Below are positions 5,039 to 37,721 of a stretch of DNA of 37,721 nt, piece after piece. Source of the stretch: Gammaproteobacteria bacterium (GTDB lineage: Bacteria > Pseudomonadota > Gammaproteobacteria > Chromatiales > Chromatiaceae); NCBI GenBank assembly GCA_011390365.1, contig JAABSM010000032.1:1-37721 (forward strand), given 5' to 3'. Both the position numbers and the translations under genes were made by a program. The stretch's first letter is position 1. The number at the start of each line of letters is the position of its first letter. The notes below the pieces were generated by a model that ran no database searches, was not told the DNA's origin, and was given only the letters and a program-made list of their open reading frames with translations.

Positions 5039-6022
5039 TCAAGGACGGGCCTTGTGGCAATAGGCATCCCCCTCGCGACGGCGCTCCACCAGCTCCTTGA
5101 CCAGCGGCCCGCAGATTACCTCCAGGGCGATCTGCAATTCGCCGCCGGGGATGACAATGGTATTGCGGCGCGACATGAAGGAGTTCTCGAACATCTTGAT
5201 GAAATGGGGGAAGTCGTAACGCTTGGGCTCCCGGAAACGGATCACCAGCATGCTCTCATGGGCGCTCGGCACATCCCGGTCCTCCTCGAAGGGGTTGGCG
5301 GTGTCCACCAGCGGGATGCGCTGAAAGTTGATGTCGGTGAGGGAGAACTGGGGCGAGATATAGCGCACGTAATCGGGCATGTAGCGCAGGATGGTGTCGA
5401 TCACCGCCTCCTTGGAACAGCCCTTGACCTTGCAGTCGCGGTGGATCTTCTGAATCCACTCCAGGTTGACCACCGGTACCACGCCGATCAGCAGATCCAC
5501 CCACTGGGCGATATCCACCCCCGGATGATCGACGCTCTCCATCTGCTGACGCTTGCGAATGGCGATGGGGTTGTGGGAGGCGCTCATGCGGCGGTGGGAC
5601 CAGGTGCTCTCGATGGCGCCGCCATGCAGCCCCTTGTAGAAGAGCAGGTCGGTACCCTCCGGCACCTCCCGCCAGGGGGTGAAGGTGCCGGAGGGGAGCC
5701 CCTCCCGCTCCGCCTCTTCGGCGTTGCGAATGTAGCGTCGCACCAGCCCGTTGCCGGTGTGGGAGTACTCCCGGAACAGCCCCTCCAGGCGATCGAACAG
5801 ATTGGCGCAGGGGCCGAAGTGGTTGATCGGCTCGCCGCGACCGAGGGAGCGCTGGTAGGCATCCAGCATCTCCTGGCGGTTGTAGCGGCGAAAGCTGTCC
5901 CCCTCGACGAAGGCGGCGCTTATCCTTTCGCGGCGAAAGATGTGCTCGAAGGCGTGGCGGATGGTGGTGGTGCCGGACCCGGAGGCCCCGGTGACGGCGA
6001 TAATCGGGTGTTTGAGCGACAT
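5039..6022 (-). CDS. prk: Phosphoribulokinase, proteobacterial class I
   Basis: Makes ribulose 1,5-bisphosphate from ribulose 5-phosphate and ATP in the Calvin cycle. The 327-residue protein begins with IIAVTGASGSGTTT, whose GASGSGTTT P-loop sits at residues 12-20, followed by FEHIFRRE, the EGDSFRRYNR catalytic segment, and the NHFGP and HGG blocks seen in bacterial class I enzymes. Family members are usually near 290 residues; the extra length is at the C-terminus. No RuBisCO, cbbR or other Calvin genes are in the window, so this copy stands alone. The 230-base upstream region holds an AT-rich patch. ATG at 6022 is preceded by a weak GGAAG. Confidence 0.95.
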   Translation of the reverse strand: MSLKHPIIAVTGASGSGTTTIRHAFEHIFRRERISAAFVEGDSFRRYNRQEMLDAYQRSLGRGEPINHFGPCANLFDRLEGLFREYSHTGNGLVRRYIRNAEEAEREGLPSGTFTPWREVPEGTDLLFYKGLHGGAIESTWSHRRMSASHNPIAIRKRQQMESVDHPGVDIAQWVDLLIGVVPVVNLEWIQKIHRDCKVKGCSKEAVIDTILRYMPDYVRYISPQFSLTDINFQRIPLVDTANPFEEDRDVPSAHESMLVIRFREPKRYDFPHFIKMFENSFMSRRNTIVIPGGELQIALEVICGPLVKELVERRREGDAYCHKARP

Positions 6023-30803: not shown

Positions 30804-31883
30804 TCAGGGATTGCCGGGGCCCCTGCGCGGCATCAGCAGGGTGTAGTCCAGGTCGAGGACGAGGTTGGGGTGGTAGACCTGGCGGCCGTCCTTGTCGATC
30901 TTGGCGTCGGCCAGTTGCTGGGTCTCCATATCCTTGACGCCAAGGGTGCGAACCCGCAGGGCCCCCAGGTCGCCGCGCCCCGGGATCTCCCATCGTTCGA
31001 CGATCTCGCTCCAGGTGTAGAAGGTGTTGCCCGCGAAGGACGGGTTGCAGTGGCTGCCGCCGTTGATGGCGGCGATGCCAAGGCTGTTGGCGAGGCCGTT
31101 GAAGGAGAGGGCGCGGCACAGCGAGATGACGTGGCCGCCGTACATCAGTCTGCGGCCGAAGCGGGAGGGCTTCATCATCAGCTCTTCAAAATGGAGTCGT
31201 GCATTGTTCTGGTAGAGGCGGGTCGCCAGGGTGTGGTCGCTCTCATCGACGGTCATGCCGTTGATGTGATCGATTCGCTCGCCCGGCTGGTAGTCTTCCC
31301 ACAGGTGCTTCGAACCCGTCCAGGCGGTATCGTAGGCGCTGGCGTCCAGCCCCGCGGGGATGGGCAGCTGCTCGGGGGCGACATGGGACGGGAGTTCGGG
31401 GATATGCGGCTCGGGCGCGGGGCTTTCCGGCGAGCGCTTGTGGACCATCACCCAGCGCGCCCAGGTCAGTACCGCTTCGCCGGACTGGTTGTAGCTGGTG
31501 GAGCGGACGTAGACGTTGCCGTTCTTGCCGCTGGAGTTCTGCTTGAGACCGATCACCTCGCTTTCCGACTGAAGCGTGTCGCCGGCATACACGGGTTGCA
31601 GGAAACGGACATCCGCATAGCCGAGATTGGCGAGGGCATTGAAGGAGATGTCGTTGACCGTCTTGCCAAAGGCGATGTGGAAGGCTAGCAGTTCGTCAAG
31701 GGGACGATCCCGTAATCCGAGGGCGCGGGCGACCGGGGTCGCGCTGGAGACGGGAAAGCGACTGCCGGTGAGGGCGGTGTAGAGCGACGCGTCGCCGTCG
31801 GTGACGGTGCGGGGGGTGCCGTGGACCAGCCGTTGTCCCAGGCTGAAGTCCTCGAAAAAGTTTCCGGTGGAGAGTTTGGACAT
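30804..31883 (-). CDS. mch: Mesaconyl-CoA hydratase (MaoC-like, Mch)
   Basis: A 359-residue double hot-dog enoyl-CoA hydratase. The N-terminal blocks GNFFEDF, GTPRTVTDGDASLYTALTGSR (in part), FHIAFGKTVNDISFNALANLGYA (in part), VYVRSTSYNQSGE and WARWVMVHKR are those of Mch from the ethylmalonyl-CoA pathway and the 3-hydroxypropionate bicycle, which interconverts beta-methylmalyl-CoA and mesaconyl-C1-CoA. The second half carries the FGRRLMYGGHVISL block. Its ribosome site GAGGAG is formed by the last codons of the upstream lyase (stop 4 bases away), so it is translationally coupled. It is the last gene of the four-gene operon. A close relative acting on itaconyl- or citramalyl-CoA cannot be excluded. 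Confidence 0.9.
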   Translation of the reverse strand: MSKLSTGNFFEDFSLGQRLVHGTPRTVTDGDASLYTALTGSRFPVSSATPVARALGLRDRPLDELLAFHIAFGKTVNDISFNALANLGYADVRFLQPVYAGDTLQSESEVIGLKQNSSGKNGNVYVRSTSYNQSGEAVLTWARWVMVHKRSPESPAPEPHIPELPSHVAPEQLPIPAGLDASAYDTAWTGSKHLWEDYQPGERIDHINGMTVDESDHTLATRLYQNNARLHFEELMMKPSRFGRRLMYGGHVISLCRALSFNGLANSLGIAAINGGSHCNPSFAGNTFYTWSEIVERWEIPGRGDLGALRVRTLGVKDMETQQLADAKIDKDGRQVYHPNLVLDLDYTLLMPRRGPGNP

Positions 31884-31886
31884 GGT

Positions 31887-32825
31887 TTACTCCTCTTCAA
31901 AGGCGCGTTTACGGGCCGCGACGGCCTCGCTGAAGTCGAGGCATCTGTGGGCGGCATCGAGTTCCGAGGGTTGCAATAGTCGGCTATCCATCATGGCGTA
32001 GGAGCGGCCATGGGTGCGGGCCTCCTCCATCAACTGAATGATCCGGCGCTTGCGCTCCAGATCCTTGGGTTTCGGCGTGAAGGCGTCGTTGGTGTAGGCC
32101 AGTTGCACGGGGTGAATGACCGCCTTGCCATCGAAACCGAAATCGCGACTCTGGCGGCAGGCATATTCGCAGTCGGTGGGTTCGGTGATGTCCAGGTGCG
32201 CCCCGTCGGCGACGCCGATGCCATGGGCGCGGGCCGCCAGTACCACCAGCGCGAGGCTGCTGAAGAGGCCGGTGCGTTCCTGAGAAGGGGGAAGATGCAT
32301 GCTGGTCGCCAGGTTGGCGGTGCTGACGATGATGCAGGCCATGCGCGGATCGGCCGCGGCGATCTTTTCGGCGTTGAGGACGGCAAGGGGGGACTCGATC
32401 ATCGCCATTAGCGGCAGTTTGGCGGAGCGTTCTTCGTCGTCGATCGCCCGCTTCAACTGCCCGGCGGCGACGCGCATCTCGTCGGGACCGCTGATGCCGG
32501 TGAAGAGTACGGCATCGATGGGCAGCGCCGCCGCCAGCGCGAGGTCATCGGCGAACCATTCGGAGTGAAGCGGATTGACGCGCAGGATCCGCTCTTGCCC
32601 GCGAAAGTGCGGCGTGTCTTCAAGCAGATGCAGCCGTAATCGCTGGCGTCCGCGTTCCTTGAATTCGGCGGCGATGGATTCGTGCAGGTCATAGATGATG
32701 GCGTCGGTTGGCAATTGCGGGGCCTTGTCGATATGCCGCTGAATGTCGGCGGAGACATACAGTAGCGTGCGACGGGGCCGTTGCCGGGCCTGCCTGATGG
32801 ATTCGGGGACGGCTGCTGCTGTCAT
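31887..32825 (-). CDS. Divergent CitE/HpcH-fold CoA-ester lyase-like protein
   Basis: A 312-residue TIM-barrel protein of the CitE/malyl-CoA lyase family: RTLLYVSAD near the start, RVNPL with R82, IESPLAVLNAEKIAAA with E144, and FDGKAVIHPVQL near 232-242. Two conserved places are altered: the usual DLEDAV reads DLHESI (46-51), and the metal-ligand Asp of G-x-x-D-L is Asn171 (STANLA). The PKVE motif is also lost (FTGIS). It may have changed chemistry, act without metal, or serve as a partner of an active lyase. The start is ATG 32825, overlapping the ligase stop by 4 bases; a longer frame to 33056 is shadow. Confidence 0.85.
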   Translation of the reverse strand: MTAAAVPESIRQARQRPRRTLLYVSADIQRHIDKAPQLPTDAIIYDLHESIAAEFKERGRQRLRLHLLEDTPHFRGQERILRVNPLHSEWFADDLALAAALPIDAVLFTGISGPDEMRVAAGQLKRAIDDEERSAKLPLMAMIESPLAVLNAEKIAAADPRMACIIVSTANLATSMHLPPSQERTGLFSSLALVVLAARAHGIGVADGAHLDITEPTDCEYACRQSRDFGFDGKAVIHPVQLAYTNDAFTPKPKDLERKRRIIQLMEEARTHGRSYAMMDSRLLQPSELDAAHRCLDFSEAVAARKRAFEEE

Positions 32826-34438
32826 GACGGGTTTGCCTCGATCTGCTGTTTGAGCTGACTGCGGATCACCTTGCCATTCTTGGTGCGCGGATAGTCTTGC
32901 AGGATATGGATGAGTTTGGGGCGCTTGTAGCCGGCGAGATGCTGCTCGCCAAAGGCCAGCAACGCCTCTTCGGAGACCGTCTCGCCGGGGCGCACCACCA
33001 CGCACGCCGCTACCAGGGTCTTGTCCTTGGTAAGATCCTGACCGATCGCCACGCAATCGGCGACCTGAGGATGGGTCTTCATGACCCGTTCGACTTCGTG
33101 GGGTGAAACCCGAAAGCCGAAGGTATTGATGATGTCATCCTTGCGCCCGAGGAACCAGATGTAGCCATCTTCGTCCATGCGCGCATAGTCGCCGGTAAAG
33201 AACCAGCCGTCGTGACGCACACTCGCGGTCTCCTCCGGCCGGTTCCAGTACTCAAGGAACAGGCCCGGATCAGAGTCCGGGATGCTGATCATCCCCTCCT
33301 CCCCCTGGGGCGCCGGCTTCAGCGCCTTGTCCAGCAGCTGCACGTCGTGGCCCGGCTGCGGAAAGCCGGCCGAGCCGGGGCGAATCGGATGGTGGCGATT
33401 CTGGGAGATGTAGTAGGAGATTTCGGACATGCCGATCGCCTCATAGACATCCATGCCGAAGCGATCCCGCCAGGCGCTGAGCATCTCATCCGAGAGGTGC
33501 TCGCCGGCGCTCATGCAGTGGCGCAGGCTGGGAACATCCTTGGCGGAGAAGTCCGTCTTCTGGATGATCTGGCGGTAGATGGTGGGGACGCCGATGAAGA
33601 TGGTGCATTGGTGACGGGCGATCAGCCGCGGCCAGGTGGTGGCGTCGTTCTTGCCTTCGTGAACGATGACCGTCTTCCCCTTGTAGAGCGGGTCCATCAG
33701 CGCCGAGCCCAGCACATAGGTCCAGTTGAACTTGCCCGAGTGCATGATGCGGTCGCCCTCGTGGAAGTCGAACCAGAAGTCGGATGCCGGCTCGCGACCG
33801 ATCATCGCGCGATGGGCGTGCAGCACCCCCTTGGGATGACCGGTGGTGCCCGAGGTGTAGACCAGGTAGGCGGGGTCATCGGCGCGGGTCACCGCGGCCG
33901 GCTCCCAGGCATCGATGGCGGCGAGCTCCTTGTCCAGATCGTGGAGCTGGATGTGGGTGCGCGACTCGGGCAACGGCCCGTCGCCGGCCAGAAAGACGTG
34001 ACGCAGCCCTTCGATCTGGTCCAGCGGACCGGCTAGCTCCGCCCACTGGGATTTGTGGGTGACCAGCACCGCCGCCCCGGAGTCGGCGGCCAGATAGGCG
34101 ACCTCTTCGCCCACCAGCAGCGTCGAGGTGGGCACCGCAATGGCGCCCCGCTTCATGGCGCCGAGAAAGGCAGTGGGATAGGCCAGGGAGTTGGGCAGTC
34201 GCACCAGCACCCGCTCCCCGGTCTCGACGCCGAGGTTGCGCAGCAACTGGGCGAAACGGCTGGTCAGCTCGGCCAGTTCGGCGTAGGTCGCGCTGCTGGT
34301 GCCGCGCTGATCATCCTCGACGATCATCGCGGTGCGATCGGCGGTCTCGCTACCCAAGTGGGCGTCGGTACATGCCACGCCAATGTTGAATTCGGCGGGG
34401 ATCTCCCATTTCCAGGCGGTATTCGTCTCGGTCTTCAT
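32822..34438 (-). CDS. AMP-forming acyl-CoA synthetase
   Basis: A 538-residue ANL-superfamily ligase: activates a carboxylic acid with ATP to acyl-AMP and then to acyl-CoA. The P-loop YTSGTTGHPKG is at about 193-203, the A5-type block YEAIGMSE at about 334-341, then DGWFFTGDYARMDEDGY (in part), FGFRVSPHEVE and the catalytic Lys in RTKNGKVIR near the end. It resembles benzoate/acetate-type ligases, but the substrate cannot be read. In this operon, after a CoA-ester lyase and before another, a dicarboxylic acid such as mesaconate or methylmalate is the attractive guess (inference). Start overlaps the upstream gene by ATGA. Confidence 0.92.
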   Translation of the reverse strand: MKTETNTAWKWEIPAEFNIGVACTDAHLGSETADRTAMIVEDDQRGTSSATYAELAELTSRFAQLLRNLGVETGERVLVRLPNSLAYPTAFLGAMKRGAIAVPTSTLLVGEEVAYLAADSGAAVLVTHKSQWAELAGPLDQIEGLRHVFLAGDGPLPESRTHIQLHDLDKELAAIDAWEPAAVTRADDPAYLVYTSGTTGHPKGVLHAHRAMIGREPASDFWFDFHEGDRIMHSGKFNWTYVLGSALMDPLYKGKTVIVHEGKNDATTWPRLIARHQCTIFIGVPTIYRQIIQKTDFSAKDVPSLRHCMSAGEHLSDEMLSAWRDRFGMDVYEAIGMSEISYYISQNRHHPIRPGSAGFPQPGHDVQLLDKALKPAPQGEEGMISIPDSDPGLFLEYWNRPEETASVRHDGWFFTGDYARMDEDGYIWFLGRKDDIINTFGFRVSPHEVERVMKTHPQVADCVAIGQDLTKDKTLVAACVVVRPGETVSEEALLAFGEQHLAGYKRPKLIHILQDYPRTKNGKVIRSQLKQQIEANPS

Positions 34439-35556
34439 AGCAGTGCTCCGTAGGGCCAGTTCTCGCGAATAACGCGGACCGGTAGTTTCTTGAGGACTTC
34501 CAGGGCAAAGTGGGTATCTTCCGGGCCCAGCGCATTCAGCGCCCTGGCCCGCAGCAGGCCTTGCAAGGCCTTGCCGAACATCGGCGGATCAAGCATCTCC
34601 CCCTCGAAGCGAATGGCCCCGCCAAGCAGGGCGTCGGCATCTACCGCCGCATGCAGGATGGCGATATTGCGCTGAATCTGGGCGGGGGAGGGGGTAAAGG
34701 CGACCTTGCAAAGATGGATGTGGTTGGGGTGAATCACCTGCTTCCCGGTGAGCCCCAGCGCGCGCTCTTCGCAGGCGTGCTGGTAAACAACGTGGGACTC
34801 CTTGTCGCCATGCAGGTCGAGCCAGCGGCGAACGTCGTGGTTTTCGACGAACTCCTCGGGCATGGGGTGTTCATTGATCAGGACCTCAACGCCACCGATG
34901 ACCCCCTTGCCCTGAATGCGCGCCTCCAGCAGCAGCAGGTTGAGGAAGGTGCGCAGCTCCCGGGTCCAGTGTTCCGGCGTAATGTGGATCGCCATCGCCT
35001 TGGAGAAGTCGTGAATGCCGAACACCACATGCTTGACGGTCGGGAAATCCATCAACTCCGGCGCCAGTTTCAGCGATTTCGGGTGCTCGATGATCGGCTG
35101 TATGGTGATACTGCCGTTGACCCCGGTCAGCCAGGACGAGAGATCCCGAATCTCCGCCGCGCCGTAGGACTCTCCCGCCTTGGCGAGACAGATGTGATCG
35201 ACATGCTCACCGATCTTCCGGAGCATGTGCAGATCCTTTTCGTACTCGTCGGTGCGAAAGGGATTGATACGCACGGCGATCTGCACATCCTCGCGCTCGA
35301 AACCGGGTAGCTCCTGGATCAGCAGCTCCCGGCTCAGCGCCTTCTGACGACAGCCGTCCTCCAGGTCAAAAAGCAGGGTGTGGGCGCTGGTTTCCAACGC
35401 GTGTTTGCGAAAACGTCGTGAGGCCGCCTCCAGATCCTCATACACCCCGAGCGCAGGCGCGTATTTAACCGGGGGGTAGTAGAGCTGAATGCCCGGCCAG
35501 CAGTCGCCGAGTACCGCTTCATCCGTGACGTCGGTCAGGTATGCCGTTTGATACAT
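34435..35556 (-). CDS. CitE/HpcH-family CoA-ester lyase (long form)
   Basis: A 373-residue protein, longer than typical CitE (near 290), with intact active-site blocks: DLEDG (64-68), RINPF with R96, LAKAGE (124-129), IIEHP with metal ligand E157, FGIHDF with metal ligand D183, and KQVIHPNHIHLCK. Related enzymes cleave malyl-, methylmalyl- or citramalyl-CoA into acetyl- or propionyl-CoA plus glyoxylate or pyruvate. First gene of the four-gene operon; GAAGGGGGAT precedes ATG 35556. The 253 bases to the divergent third lyase must hold both promoters. Confidence 0.9.
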   Translation of the reverse strand: MYQTAYLTDVTDEAVLGDCWPGIQLYYPPVKYAPALGVYEDLEAASRRFRKHALETSAHTLLFDLEDGCRQKALSRELLIQELPGFEREDVQIAVRINPFRTDEYEKDLHMLRKIGEHVDHICLAKAGESYGAAEIRDLSSWLTGVNGSITIQPIIEHPKSLKLAPELMDFPTVKHVVFGIHDFSKAMAIHITPEHWTRELRTFLNLLLLEARIQGKGVIGGVEVLINEHPMPEEFVENHDVRRWLDLHGDKESHVVYQHACEERALGLTGKQVIHPNHIHLCKVAFTPSPAQIQRNIAILHAAVDADALLGGAIRFEGEMLDPPMFGKALQGLLRARALNALGPEDTHFALEVLKKLPVRVIRENWPYGALL

Positions 35557-35809
35557 GAAAATCCCCCTTCAGGAACCCGTTGATAGGACCCGATGCGGAT
35601 AAAATCCGCCATGGTGCGGGTGAAAACTAATAGTATTTTTCGTTTGTATTGGTTTGTGTCATACTAGCCAAGGAGATGCTGCAATGCAACATGTGAGATG
35701 AAAATGCCGCGTCGAATTCTTCGGCGATGACGTGGTATTGACAATAAAAGCAATTGATATCGATCGATTCAAACTGAATGCCTGTTGATCCATAAGGAGG
35801 AAGATAGTG

Positions 35810-36805
35810 ATGACCACCGCAGTACACCCAAGCCAGGCCCTCTTCAGCGGCGAGAAACCCTTCCCGATCGTCCCTACCTGCGAGCACTTCGCGGGGAGCG
35901 AGAAGCTGATCGGCAAGGCCTTGGCGATGCAGGACAAACTCGGCCCCATCTTTGACATCACCTGCGACTGCGAAGATGGCGCACCCGCCGGCCGCGAGCA
36001 GGAGCATGCCGAAATGATCGTGCGCATGCTCAACAGCGAAGCGAACCGCCACCGCATGGCCGGCGCGCGCATCCACGACTACAGTCACGATCACTGGCGC
36101 AAGGATGTGGATATCCTGGTTGGCGGGGCGGGCGAGATCCTCACCTATATCACCATCCCCAAGACCACCGACGTGGCCCATCTGCGCGAGATGGTCGACT
36201 ACATTCGCGGCGTCGCCGCCAATGCCGGCATCCAGCGCGAAATCCCCCTGCATATCCTCATCGAGACCCACGGCGCCCTGCGCGATGTCTGGCGGATTGC
36301 CGCCACGGACTGGGTTCAGGTGCTGGATTTCGGGTTAATGGATTTTGTCAGCGGCCACCATGGCGCCATCCCGGCCTCGGCCATGCGCAGCCCGGGGCAG
36401 TTCGAGCATCGCCTGCTAGCGCGCGCCAAGTCCGAAATGGTCGCGGCGGCGCTGGCCAATGGCTGCGTCCCGGCCCACAACGTCAGCCTGGACCTCAAGA
36501 ACAGCTACTCGACCTACCAGGACGCCTACCGCGCCCGCAACGAATTCGGCTTCCTGCGCATGTGGAGCATCTACCCCGCCCAGATCCAGGCCATCGTCGA
36601 CGCGATGAAACCGAGTTACAGCGAAATCGAGGACGCGGCGGCGATCCTGCTGGCCGCCCAGCAGGCGGACTGGGGACCCATTCAATATGCCGGTGAATTG
36701 CACGACCGCGCCACCTATCGCTACTACTGGGAACTGCTGCGCAAGGCGCGGGTTACCGGTGTAGCGATCCCTGAGGCCGCGACGACCGCCTTTTTCGCCG
36801 ACTGA
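35810..36805 (+). CDS. CitE/HpcH-family CoA-ester lyase (third, divergent)
   Basis: A 331-residue TIM-barrel protein. DCEDGAPAG (53-61), R87 in ARIHDY, IPKTTD in place of PKVE, LIETHG with metal ligand E152, and FGLMDFVSGHHG with metal ligand D178 give the malyl-CoA/citramalyl-CoA lyase pattern. ATG 35810 is preceded by an ideal TAAGGAGG nine bases away, so expression should be strong; a GTG one codon earlier is unlikely. Transcribed away from the four-gene operon, probably under a shared regulator. It is a different subfamily from the two lyases of that operon, so it is not a recent duplicate. Confidence 0.9.
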   Translation: MTTAVHPSQALFSGEKPFPIVPTCEHFAGSEKLIGKALAMQDKLGPIFDITCDCEDGAPAGREQEHAEMIVRMLNSEANRHRMAGARIHDYSHDHWRKDVDILVGGAGEILTYITIPKTTDVAHLREMVDYIRGVAANAGIQREIPLHILIETHGALRDVWRIAATDWVQVLDFGLMDFVSGHHGAIPASAMRSPGQFEHRLLARAKSEMVAAALANGCVPAHNVSLDLKNSYSTYQDAYRARNEFGFLRMWSIYPAQIQAIVDAMKPSYSEIEDAAAILLAAQQADWGPIQYAGELHDRATYRYYWELLRKARVTGVAIPEAATTAFFAD

Positions 36806-37533
36806 GAGAGGCTTCACCGATACCCGGCGAGCCGGCACATCCCCCGTAACCCGTTTACGCCCCCTATCGAAAACGCCCTCTCCGGCCGGCGGAAGACCGG
36901 GGAGAGGGCTCAGGACAGCAAGGGGGGCGTGAACGCAGCCCCTTCCGAATGTTCTCGTCAACCTGCCACGGCTGCACGGGTTGACGCCCTGGTGCAGCAC
37001 CCGCCAAGTGACTATGAATAATGCGGCGCATAGGATGTTGATTTTCTCGTTTTCTCGTTTCCATGCGCCGCATGGAAATGCAGTCTTGACCGCGTCGCGG
37101 TCCGAGTCGGGATGCGGCGCATAGGGTGTGGATTTTTATATAAATAGAGTTATTGCTTATGTAGCGGGTGCTGCACTAGCGTCAAACCCCCGCGCCACCC
37201 TCCTACTGTGGAATATAGCCCTCGGCCTGTGCCACCTTCATACGCACGCACCAACCCGAACCATCACGACCCGCTCCCCAAAAAATGGTTTAAAAGTTGA
37301 ATATCAAAAGGTAGACTTATATGAATCAAGTAATATCAGCCCCGCGACCAAGGCAAAAACGGTGGGAATCACGGCGAGGCGACAAGGCCCCCTTGGCTTA
37401 GAAAATCGATTGGTATGCAATTTCTAAGAATAGGGTTAGTATATTTGGGAACCTACATCTGGCGAGGCTTCGCCTCAGACCAACGAGTCATGGGGCGGGT
37501 TTTTTGGGCTACAAATGCACGCTCATATTAAAT
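36806..37533. other. Gene-free stretch with hairpins and an AT-rich section
   Basis: Holds a CTCTCC/GGAGAG hairpin of the left-edge repeat type (36874-36908), GCGCATAGGATG half copies (37025 and 37115), the palindrome TTTCCATGCG plus complement (37058-37078), an AT-rich section (about 37130-37440) and a GAGGC-TTC-GCCTC hairpin (37464-37476). Two small frames (37128-37427, and 26 codons from 37321) have no support as genes. Confidence 0.6.
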
Positions 37534-37721
37534 GTCATTAACTTAAGCGCCACGCCAGGTTCCCGCCCTTGATGCGCCTTACTCCGGGGCAGCCTGGAAA
37601 TCGTCGAACCGGCATAGGATGTGCCGAATAAAAGGCCTTGTCGCTCGGTCGACGGCACATCCTATGCAGAACCAAAAACGGTCGGCGCACCCACGAAATG
37701 AGGCGCATCAGTCCCGGAGAA
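37534..37721. repeat. About 190-bp dispersed repeat, copy B (to window edge)
   Basis: Second copy of the element at 14205-14391. Here GCATAGGATGTGCC (37612-37625) and GGCACATCCTATGC (37654-37667) are perfect inverse arms, followed by GAGGCGCATCA. It may continue beyond the window. Confidence 0.8.

Follow-up and report, generated by a model that had tools for sequence, protein, structure and literature searches.

The 37,721-nucleotide window analyzed here (contig JAABSM010000032.1 of assembly GCA_011390365.1, from a gammaproteobacterium of the Chromatiaceae) makes up one whole contig of a genome of 4.26 Mb in 169 contigs (G000). Near one end it carries five clustered genes encoding three proteins of the citrate lyase (CitE) fold, LyaseA, LyaseB, and CitE2; an AMP-forming acyl-coenzyme A (CoA) ligase; and the mesaconyl-C1-CoA hydratase Mch. 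We propose that this cassette probably encodes the characteristic section of a citramalate cycle, an isocitrate lyase (ICL)-free route from acetyl-CoA to glyoxylate and C4 acids. The proposal builds on observed gene order, protein families, catalytic residues, and co-occurrence; the substrates, stereochemistry, and direction of the reactions, the enzyme activities, and the thioesterase role are those that this context suggests.

Four of the genes form a minus-strand arm in which LyaseB and the ligase, and the ligase and CitE2, overlap by 4 bases (ATGA) and CitE2 and Mch are separated by 3 bases; LyaseA is divergent from this arm (Table 1). An earlier sequence-only reading of the window had described this tightly coupled arrangement, and its naming of the ligase and the mesaconyl-CoA hydratase was upheld by Pfam, NCBIfam, and PDB comparisons. 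Mch is the surest family call (PF19315 above the cut-off; PDB 4e3e, E = 6.5e-134; PDB 8hgn, "beta-methylmalyl-CoA dehydratase," E = 4.8e-121) and supplies the mesaconyl-C1-CoA hydratase that a citramalate cycle requires. The closest solved relatives of the ligase, none of them close, are anthranilate- and benzoate-CoA (aryl-CoA) ligases. LyaseA matched PDB 3qqw (E = 2.7e-155) and also 3r4i, entries that their depositors named only putative citrate lyase or citrate lyase. LyaseB is distant from every solved CitE/malyl-CoA lyase protein (best E = 3.8e-10), and its structure model is of low confidence (pLDDT 64.8). The gene set suits the C5 dicarboxyl-CoA chemistry (mesaconyl-, methylmalyl-, and citramalyl-CoA) suggested earlier, and an ATP-driven ligase does occupy the place where a CoA transferase is usual.

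Table 1. Genes and intergenic region of the cassette, in window coordinates
Feature	Position	Strand	Length	Family	Proposed function or remark
LyaseB	34435..35556	-	373 aa	PF03328	CitE-fold C-C lyase; proposed (S)-citramalyl-CoA-forming/cleaving (acetyl-CoA + pyruvate), substrate suggested by gene context
Acyl-CoA ligase, AMP-forming	32822..34438	-	538 aa	PF00501 + PF13193	Proposed mesaconate:CoA ligase (mesaconyl-C1-CoA forming), putative substrate
CitE2	31887..32825	-	312 aa	PF03328	Mcl2-like; proposed citramalyl-/malyl-CoA thioesterase, partly degenerate in the window's clade
Mch	30804..31883	-	359 aa	PF19315/PF01575	Mesaconyl-C1-CoA hydratase / beta-methylmalyl-CoA dehydratase
LyaseA	35807 (GTG) or 35810 (ATG)..36805	+		PF03328	CitE-fold C-C lyase; proposed beta-methylmalyl-CoA lyase (propionyl-CoA + glyoxylate)
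Divergent intergenic region between the two arms	35557..35806	.	~250 bp		One weak palindrome, 35748-35769

In the proposed cycle, LyaseB would join acetyl-CoA and pyruvate to form citramalyl-CoA, whose CoA would be hydrolyzed, probably by the Mcl2-like CitE2, to leave citramalate. A class I fumarase encoded elsewhere in the genome would convert (S)-citramalate to mesaconate, the ligase would use ATP to form mesaconyl-C1-CoA, Mch would turn this into beta-methylmalyl-CoA, and LyaseA would split the latter into propionyl-CoA and glyoxylate. Propionyl-CoA would return to pyruvate via the methylcitrate cycle in most carriers and would be recycled via propionyl-CoA carboxylase and methylmalonyl-CoA mutase in the window's clade. 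Summed with the methylcitrate cycle, acetyl-CoA and oxaloacetate would yield succinate and glyoxylate, the carbon balance of citrate synthase, aconitase, and ICL at the extra cost of one ligase ATP. Glyoxylate and acetyl-CoA would then give malate, probably via LyaseA and CitE2, since 36 of 50 carrier genomes, the window genome included, show no malate synthase. The CoA of citramalyl-CoA sits on the acetyl-derived carboxyl, and the substrate of Mch is mesaconyl-C1-CoA (PMC5592240). In support of the scheme, class I fumarase-type enzymes are described as hydrating mesaconate to (S)-citramalate (PMC4682846). The CoA would be shifted by way of free citramalate and mesaconate through the joint action of a thioesterase, a class I fumarase, and an ATP-driven ligase. 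Chloroflexus achieves such a shift by Mct. The scheme would employ every cassette gene as well as the recurrent neighbors described below.

The catalytic residues are consistent with this division of labor. In malyl-CoA lyases, Glu44/Asp45, Arg76, Glu141, Asp168, and Asp299 (R. sphaeroides numbering) are described as conserved superfamily-wide, the exception being a malyl-CoA thioesterase group with Glu in place of Asp299 (PMC3832036). Residues were placed by alignment with 4l9y, 5ugr, and CLYBL; the Asp299 equivalent falls in a G-x-[ML]-[IV]-D motif that is kept in LyaseA and LyaseB and altered in CitE2. The full set is invariant in LyaseB (E66/D67, R96, E157, D183, and D323 in 22 of 22 family members) and in LyaseA (E55/D56, R87, E152, D178, and D299 in 20 of 20). 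At the Asp299 site of CitE2 we found Glu in 14 of 20 sequences and Gln in 6 (the window protein and 5 of its 19 relatives); Glu44 is lost in 17 of 20, and the same six Gln-bearing sequences have Asn for Asp168, a Mg ligand. The window CitE2, with Gln, does not show the Mcl2 thioesterase hallmark of Glu for Asp299. All three proteins contain PF03328, in line with the earlier claim of three CitE-fold lyases, which falters at CitE2: this protein is unlikely to be an ordinary lyase because the catalytic Asp and, in the window's clade, a metal ligand are lost. Its structure model (pLDDT 82.9) has malyl-CoA lyases as nearest folds, at a TM score of about 0.6 and with a large root mean square deviation.

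A link between CitE2 and Mcl2 is suggested by a Ruegeria sp. TM1040 "CoA ester lyase" encoded between mdh and a MaoC/Mch gene plus sdhC, at a locus that we take to be that of the characterized Mcl2 of Rhodobacter. This protein carries Glu at the Asp299 position, and its identity to the nine CitE2 proteins examined is 35-50% (35% to the window CitE2). A Marinibacterium plasmid protein annotated "mcl2" is no help, because its residue at the site is Asp and its similarity to CitE2 is lower. The set thus probably comprises two lyases with full catalytic sets and one thioesterase-type protein, the last with reduced confidence for the window's clade.

LyaseB is rare, occurring at E <= 1e-20 in 6 of the 369 genomes of a class-wide sample, the window genome among them. 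A scan of GTDB contigs yielded 258 confirmed LyaseB stretches, of which the best 80, ranked by LyaseB similarity, were taken as loci (coded L); the 6 LyaseB genomes of the class-wide sample and 44 of the 80 loci, hand-picked for spread, formed a 50-genome carrier panel (genomes coded G; L013 and L047 are the same contigs as in G208 and G160). Carrier genomes are draft bins, so single gene absences may be assembly gaps. LyaseB and the ligase are adjacent in all 80 loci, all five genes lie within the fetched stretch in 58, and the exact order of the window recurs in 30; such an arrangement is far beyond chance. The sequence-only reading had proposed a search for the gene order among Chromatiales-type genomes. 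The cassette is not confined to them: the loci include Sedimenticola, Thiobacillus, Sulfuricella, Gallionellaceae (Gallionella and Sideroxydans), Methylophaga, Methylophilaceae, Kangiella, Pleionea, and Aliikangiella, together with Burkholderiales or betaproteobacterial bins.

The cassette is composed of two separable modules, LyaseB-ligase and CitE2-Mch-LyaseA. For loci with LyaseB-ligase by itself, sometimes only because of a contig end, a second locus held CitE2, Mch, and LyaseA, or a contig-limited part of them, in each of the 15 genomes checked; six more LyaseB-ligase-only loci (L056, L067, L074, L076, L077, and L091) fell outside this check. All 50 LyaseB genomes of the panel contain LyaseA, and in 27 of the 80 loci no more than 600 bp separate it from Mch. 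In support of joint function, pairwise distances of the five proteins co-vary (r of 0.65-0.90 over 73 genomes, against a largest r of 0.21 in 300 permutations per pair), a result to which shared descent contributes. Of the 84 genomes used for this comparison, 11 had been dropped for want of a gene in the available DNA (because of contig ends, or of a second locus outside the stretches fetched). LyaseB had no match on PLSDB plasmids. Homologs of LyaseA occur there, directly after mch on a plasmid of Sphingobium sp. TomTYG74 and, on plasmid p2 of Cupriavidus pinatubonensis (L146), immediately following a pyruvate carboxylase gene; a further CoA ester lyase and a tripartite tricarboxylate transporter protein are encoded upstream on p2.

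As to co-occurrence, none of the 50 carriers has an ICL over the TIGR01346 cut-off, and 47 have only a short match of the PrpB type (E of 2e-22 at best, covering about 90-100 of 527 positions). As a base rate, 93 of 369 class-wide genomes exceed the cut-off; some 30 more show, by eye, several weaker ICL pieces (E of 1e-27 to 1e-34), perhaps a second type. Within the window's family, G141 and G350 have ICL and no LyaseB, as does G343 in the family of carrier G247, and these close relatives argue, supportively though not decisively, for replacement of ICL. Among class-sample genomes with LyaseA (E <= 1e-60), ICL was found in 0 of 6 with LyaseB versus 5 of 7 without (one-sided Fisher, 21/1287 = 0.016, by hand). 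In those five ICL-positive genomes, LyaseA occurs without Mch, CitE2, or LyaseB in the stretches fetched. Solitary LyaseA was noted in G014, G087, G211, G116, and G330, and LyaseA stands beside GntR-sdh in G224 and G107. In G014 a LyaseA homolog (62% identity; L138:12522-13529) lies between an ICL gene (~8 kb) and a malate synthase gene (~6 kb). LyaseA may have another role in genomes without the rest of the cassette.

The return of propionyl-CoA that the cycle calls for is encoded nearly throughout the panel. PrpB exceeded its cut-off in 44 of 50 carriers, and five of the six PrpB-negative carriers have a methylmalonyl-CoA mutase or a fragment of one, so that a sink by either route is present, as genes, in 49 of 50. 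PF01642 mutases occur in 14 carriers, with matches of >780 bits in G000, G084, G208, G371, and G406 and, in G370, a fragment where a contig ends; the remaining frames, mostly about 1100 aa, are taken as putative fused isobutyryl-CoA mutases, only the G000 protein having been typed further. That protein, the sole PF01642 protein of the window genome, reaches 1281 bits as methylmalonyl-CoA mutase (PRK09426, cut-off 876) and is encoded on contig C119 in a row with a PrpE-like ligase, a carboxyltransferase, and a biotin carboxylase. The latter three fall below the equivalog cut-offs for propionate enzymes; from its context the carboxyltransferase-biotin carboxylase pair is probably a propionyl-CoA carboxylase, which the sequence-only reading had suggested looking for. 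Class I fumarase is likewise present in 49 of 50 carriers; in the window genome it is encoded on contig C85, and in G084 and G208 it lies a few kilobases from the PrpE-like gene and the mutase. Also consistent with the scheme, malate synthase was found in 14 of 50 carriers versus 42 of 47 ICL-positive control genomes (50 genomes less the ICL-negative G254, G116, and G330).

Several details of the propionate genes were noted in passing. Between the PrpE-like gene and the mutase of the window genome (L123:5372-7637) lie ~2.5 kb with other open reading frames (ORFs), one with a GKNGSGKSS motif; the two genes are ~200 bases apart in a Sedimenticola bin (L126), and the window-genome gap looks like an insertion. 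PrpB-like proteins under the PrpB cut-off (248-263 bits) are encoded near the PrpE-like/mutase cluster at L128:2855-3745 and L124:8448-9284 (G370, G371), and a similar one is found in the window genome on a separate contig, C92. L060, labeled Candidatus Methylopumilus universalis, has both PrpB and the cassette and is possibly a mislabeled bin; the methylcitrate pathway has been reported absent from all Ca. Methylopumilus strains (PMC6794327).

Neighboring genes draw the cassette toward the tricarboxylic acid (TCA) and methylcitrate cycles. One representative was scanned with Pfam for each of the fumarase, malic enzyme, phosphoenolpyruvate (PEP) synthase regulator, acetyl-CoA-synthetase-type, UPF0114, PrpB, and PrpD groups; the names GntR, sdh, PrpC, and PEP synthase were assigned by eye. 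LyaseA lies directly beside PrpB in 22 of 50 carriers (by eye, from coordinates), and in 24 of 80 loci a class I fumarase, a possible mesaconase, is encoded <=1.5 kb from the ligase and without exception on its strand; both linkages favor the citramalate cycle. An acetyl-CoA-synthetase-type gene lies <=1.5 kb from LyaseB in 15 of 80 loci. In Methylophilaceae, GntR-malic enzyme-sdhCDAB-LyaseB-ligase-class I fumarase faces CitE2-Mch-LyaseA-PrpB-PrpC on the opposite strand, and in Methylophaga, PrpD-PrpC-PrpB-LyaseA-Mch-CitE2 stands against GntR-malic enzyme-LyaseB-ligase-PEP synthase regulator-PEP synthase. Burkholderiales-type bins have LyaseB-ligase-(UPF0114)-fumarase opposite the acetyl-CoA-synthetase-type gene and, near sdh, GntR|CitE2-Mch-LyaseA-PrpB-PrpC-(PrpD). 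In many relatives the region between the two arms holds a GntR-like regulator gene instead.

The window itself, being a whole contig, gives no view past the far side of LyaseA. At 36990-37700, toward the contig end beyond LyaseA, near-copies of a short motif (about GGCGCATAGGATGT, plus its reverse complement) recur by eye and resemble small dispersed repeats. At 5039-6022 on the minus strand it encodes a phosphoribulokinase/uridine kinase family protein (PF00485, E = 9.5e-52), the likely source of the Calvin cycle capacity claimed earlier; no RuBisCO was matched among the 40 other window ORFs, a subset, that were scanned with Pfam. Itaconate degradation was considered for the cassette and rejected, as the RipB/RipC NCBIfam equivalog cut-offs were missed (P0001, 108 bits versus 340; P0002, 89.5 versus 375).

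Several observations weigh against the citramalate cycle. We know of no established activity for LyaseA, LyaseB, or the ligase. With Gln and Asn at catalytic positions, CitE2 of the window's clade may leave hydrolysis to a separate enzyme. Burkholderiales have CitE2 together with malate synthase, a combination for which we also rejected the idea that CitE2 is a mere malate synthase substitute. Inheritance by lineage accounts for part of the ICL absence: 276 of the 369 class-wide genomes are under the cut-off in any case, G254 in the window's family and G002 in that of carrier G160 have neither ICL nor LyaseB, the 0-of-6 figure is by itself weak, and the panel was selected (6 genomes from the class search and 44 picked from the top 80 by LyaseB similarity). 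One 2.1-Mb bin, G369, has the cassette and no PrpB, mutase, or class I fumarase. PrpB adjacency and the lack of malate synthase also fit the reverse route described next, for which the phosphoribulokinase-family gene, by allowing photorespiratory glyoxylate, leaves room.

Direction is not given by the sequence, and the same enzymes run backward would assimilate glyoxylate. They would then form a ligase-based second half of the 3-hydroxypropionate bicycle, taking glyoxylate and propionyl-CoA through beta-methylmalyl-CoA, mesaconyl-C1-CoA, mesaconate, citramalate, and (by the ligase) citramalyl-CoA to pyruvate and acetyl-CoA, and would serve to salvage photorespiratory glyoxylate or to co-assimilate propionate. 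The partial 3-hydroxypropionate cycle of the sequence-only reading survives in this form, which we consider unlikely: the lack of ICL and the methylcitrate, sdh, and fumarase neighbors favor a citramalate-type cycle. The phosphoribulokinase-family gene speaks for the reverse route, as does a partial 3-hydroxypropionate bicycle, with other enzymes, that was proposed for assimilation in the sulfur-oxidizing symbiont Kentron (PMC6593406); glyoxylate use would fit the 36 of 50 carriers that have no malate synthase, and the LyaseA-PrpB linkage would suit a propionyl-CoA consumer. However, Methylophilaceae bearing the set are reported without the Calvin cycle, glyoxylate shunt, or ethylmalonyl-CoA pathway (PMC6794327) and therefore have no obvious glyoxylate source, a glyoxylate sink does not predict the absence of ICL in 50 of 50 carriers, and an Mcl2-like protein suggests hydrolysis of a 3-hydroxyacyl-CoA rather than of mesaconyl-CoA.

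It is less likely still that the genes serve catabolism of external C5 dicarboxylates (mesaconate, citramalate, or methylmalate), the ligase activating them and the two lyases splitting citramalyl-CoA and methylmalyl-CoA. Burkholderia xenovorans is described as using mesaconate by a class I fumarase, a CoA transferase, and a citramalyl-CoA lyase (PMC4682846), and the LyaseB-ligase-fumarase operon of Burkholderiales and Methylophilaceae would suffice for this. Yet the set is kept in Methylophilaceae bins down to 1.5 Mb, in iron- and sulfur-oxidizer genera, and in Kangiella; it is linked to sdh, malic enzyme, Prp, and Acs-type genes; no recurrent C5-acid transporter was recognized among those neighbors that were annotated; and neither the lack of ICL nor the finding of both lyases in every carrier (50 of 50) is explained. 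A methylaspartate-like cycle, in which mesaconate would derive from glutamate, the ligase would replace mesaconate CoA-transferase, LyaseA would split methylmalyl-CoA, and LyaseB with CitE2 would make malate from acetyl-CoA and glyoxylate, is very improbable. Haloarchaea do use mesaconate activation, Mch, and a CitE-fold lyase/malate synthase in that order (PMC5592240, PMC3832036), but glutamate mutase requires B12 (PMC4682846) and pelagic Methylophilaceae are reported without B12 synthesis, though with annotated putative B12 transporters (PMC6794327), and class I fumarase, superfluous to such a cycle, accompanies the ligase in 24 of 80 loci.

The citramalate cycle dates from 1997, when Ivanovsky et al. 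proposed it for Rhodospirillum rubrum (cited via the review PMC8307300 and the reference list of PMC4682846). According to the 2021 review, its operation in R. rubrum is contested, and data on two of its enzymes in Rba. capsulatus were not available (PMC8307300). The sequence of intermediates there, from acetyl-CoA and pyruvate through citramalate, mesaconate, mesaconyl-CoA, and methylmalyl-CoA to glyoxylate and propionyl-CoA and back to pyruvate, is the one proposed here. We found no genes assigned to it there, whereas here there is a conserved gene set with an ATP-dependent ligase. The review also routes the propionyl-CoA arm through succinyl-CoA (PMC8307300), as the mutase of the window genome would, whereas most carriers would use the methylcitrate cycle rather than methylmalonyl-CoA.

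Other known pathways share parts of the set. With the ethylmalonyl-CoA pathway of Rhodobacter and Methylobacterium it shares an Mch 50% identical to the Ruegeria MaoC/Mch protein, an Mcl2-like CitE2 paired with Mch and TCA cycle genes, the splitting of methylmalyl-CoA, and the absence of ICL; it differs in that mesaconyl-CoA would come from a ligase and that LyaseA and LyaseB belong to other CitE subfamilies. We rejected that pathway as the setting because 36 of 50 carriers have no PF01642 protein as a candidate ethylmalonyl-CoA mutase; the only one in the window genome scores, as noted, as methylmalonyl-CoA mutase. The second cycle of the 3-hydroxypropionate bicycle in Chloroflexus likewise has Mch and interconverts glyoxylate plus propionyl-CoA with pyruvate plus acetyl-CoA, but does so with one trifunctional lyase, Mct, and Meh, in contrast to two separate lyases and a ligase (plus fumarase) here. 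The methylaspartate cycle of Haloarcula also activates mesaconate to the C1 ester, employs Mch and CitE-fold lyases, and yields glyoxylate and propionyl-CoA; its mesaconate is glutamate derived and activated by a CoA transferase, whereas the cassette has a ligase and its mesaconate probably derives from citramalate. Open-licence full text, the literature searched (subscription papers lay outside it), yielded no description of this gene set and no assignment of genes to the citramalate cycle. The pathway itself was conceived long ago; what appears to be new is the gene cassette, the bypass by a ligase, and coupling with the methylcitrate cycle.

Obligate methylotrophs without 2-oxoglutarate dehydrogenase invite a tentative extension of this proposal, which we regard as doubtful. 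Their super-operon, GntR-malic enzyme-sdh-LyaseB-ligase-fumarase // CitE2-Mch-LyaseA-PrpBC, might encode a complete second respiratory cycle, a "citramalate-methylcitrate cycle" in which acetyl-CoA would be converted to glyoxylate via citramalate and methylcitrate and then to malate, pyruvate, and CO2. Of the panel genomes, all 8 of Methylophilaceae, the 3 of Methylophaga, and 4 more lack 2-oxoglutarate dehydrogenase; the enzyme is present in 35 of 50 carriers, the window genome included, which weakens replacement of this enzyme as the general purpose of the cassette. Published transcript data from the OM43 strain NB0046 list neighboring "HpcH/HpaI aldolase/citrate lyase" and "long-chain fatty acid-CoA ligase" genes (PMC5120137), which gene order and annotation suggest are LyaseB and the ligase. 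Transcripts of the pair per 1,000 cells numbered 101/104 in nutrient-deplete, 269/341 in replete, and 420/487 in vitamin-amended cultures (PMC5120137). They peaked at 1,055/1,045 with dissolved organic matter, where methylcitrate genes were also up (PMC5120137), in keeping with the citramalate cycle. Less favorable to it, the pair also rose with nutrients and vitamins on methanol, and the rise with dissolved organic matter over replete culture was only three- to fourfold (PMC5120137). The authors considered the role of succinate dehydrogenase unclear in NB0046, which is without the E1 component of 2-oxoglutarate dehydrogenase (PMC5120137).

The proposal cautions against annotating gene sets of this kind as a partial 3-hydroxypropionate bicycle. 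If our proposal is correct, the citramalate cycle would gain a gene signature across sulfur oxidizers, iron oxidizers, methylotrophs, and Kangiella-type heterotrophs, including named testable strains, and the cassette would offer new CitE subfamilies, together with a candidate mesaconate-CoA ligase, to efforts at synthetic acetyl-CoA assimilation. Two questions about methylotrophs with a broken TCA cycle would also be touched: their reason for keeping the methylcitrate cycle and the purpose of their succinate dehydrogenase (PMC5120137). Were the citramalate-methylcitrate cycle to operate in these organisms, it would replace the broken TCA cycle and the glyoxylate shunt together and would explain the retention of the methylcitrate cycle and succinate dehydrogenase.

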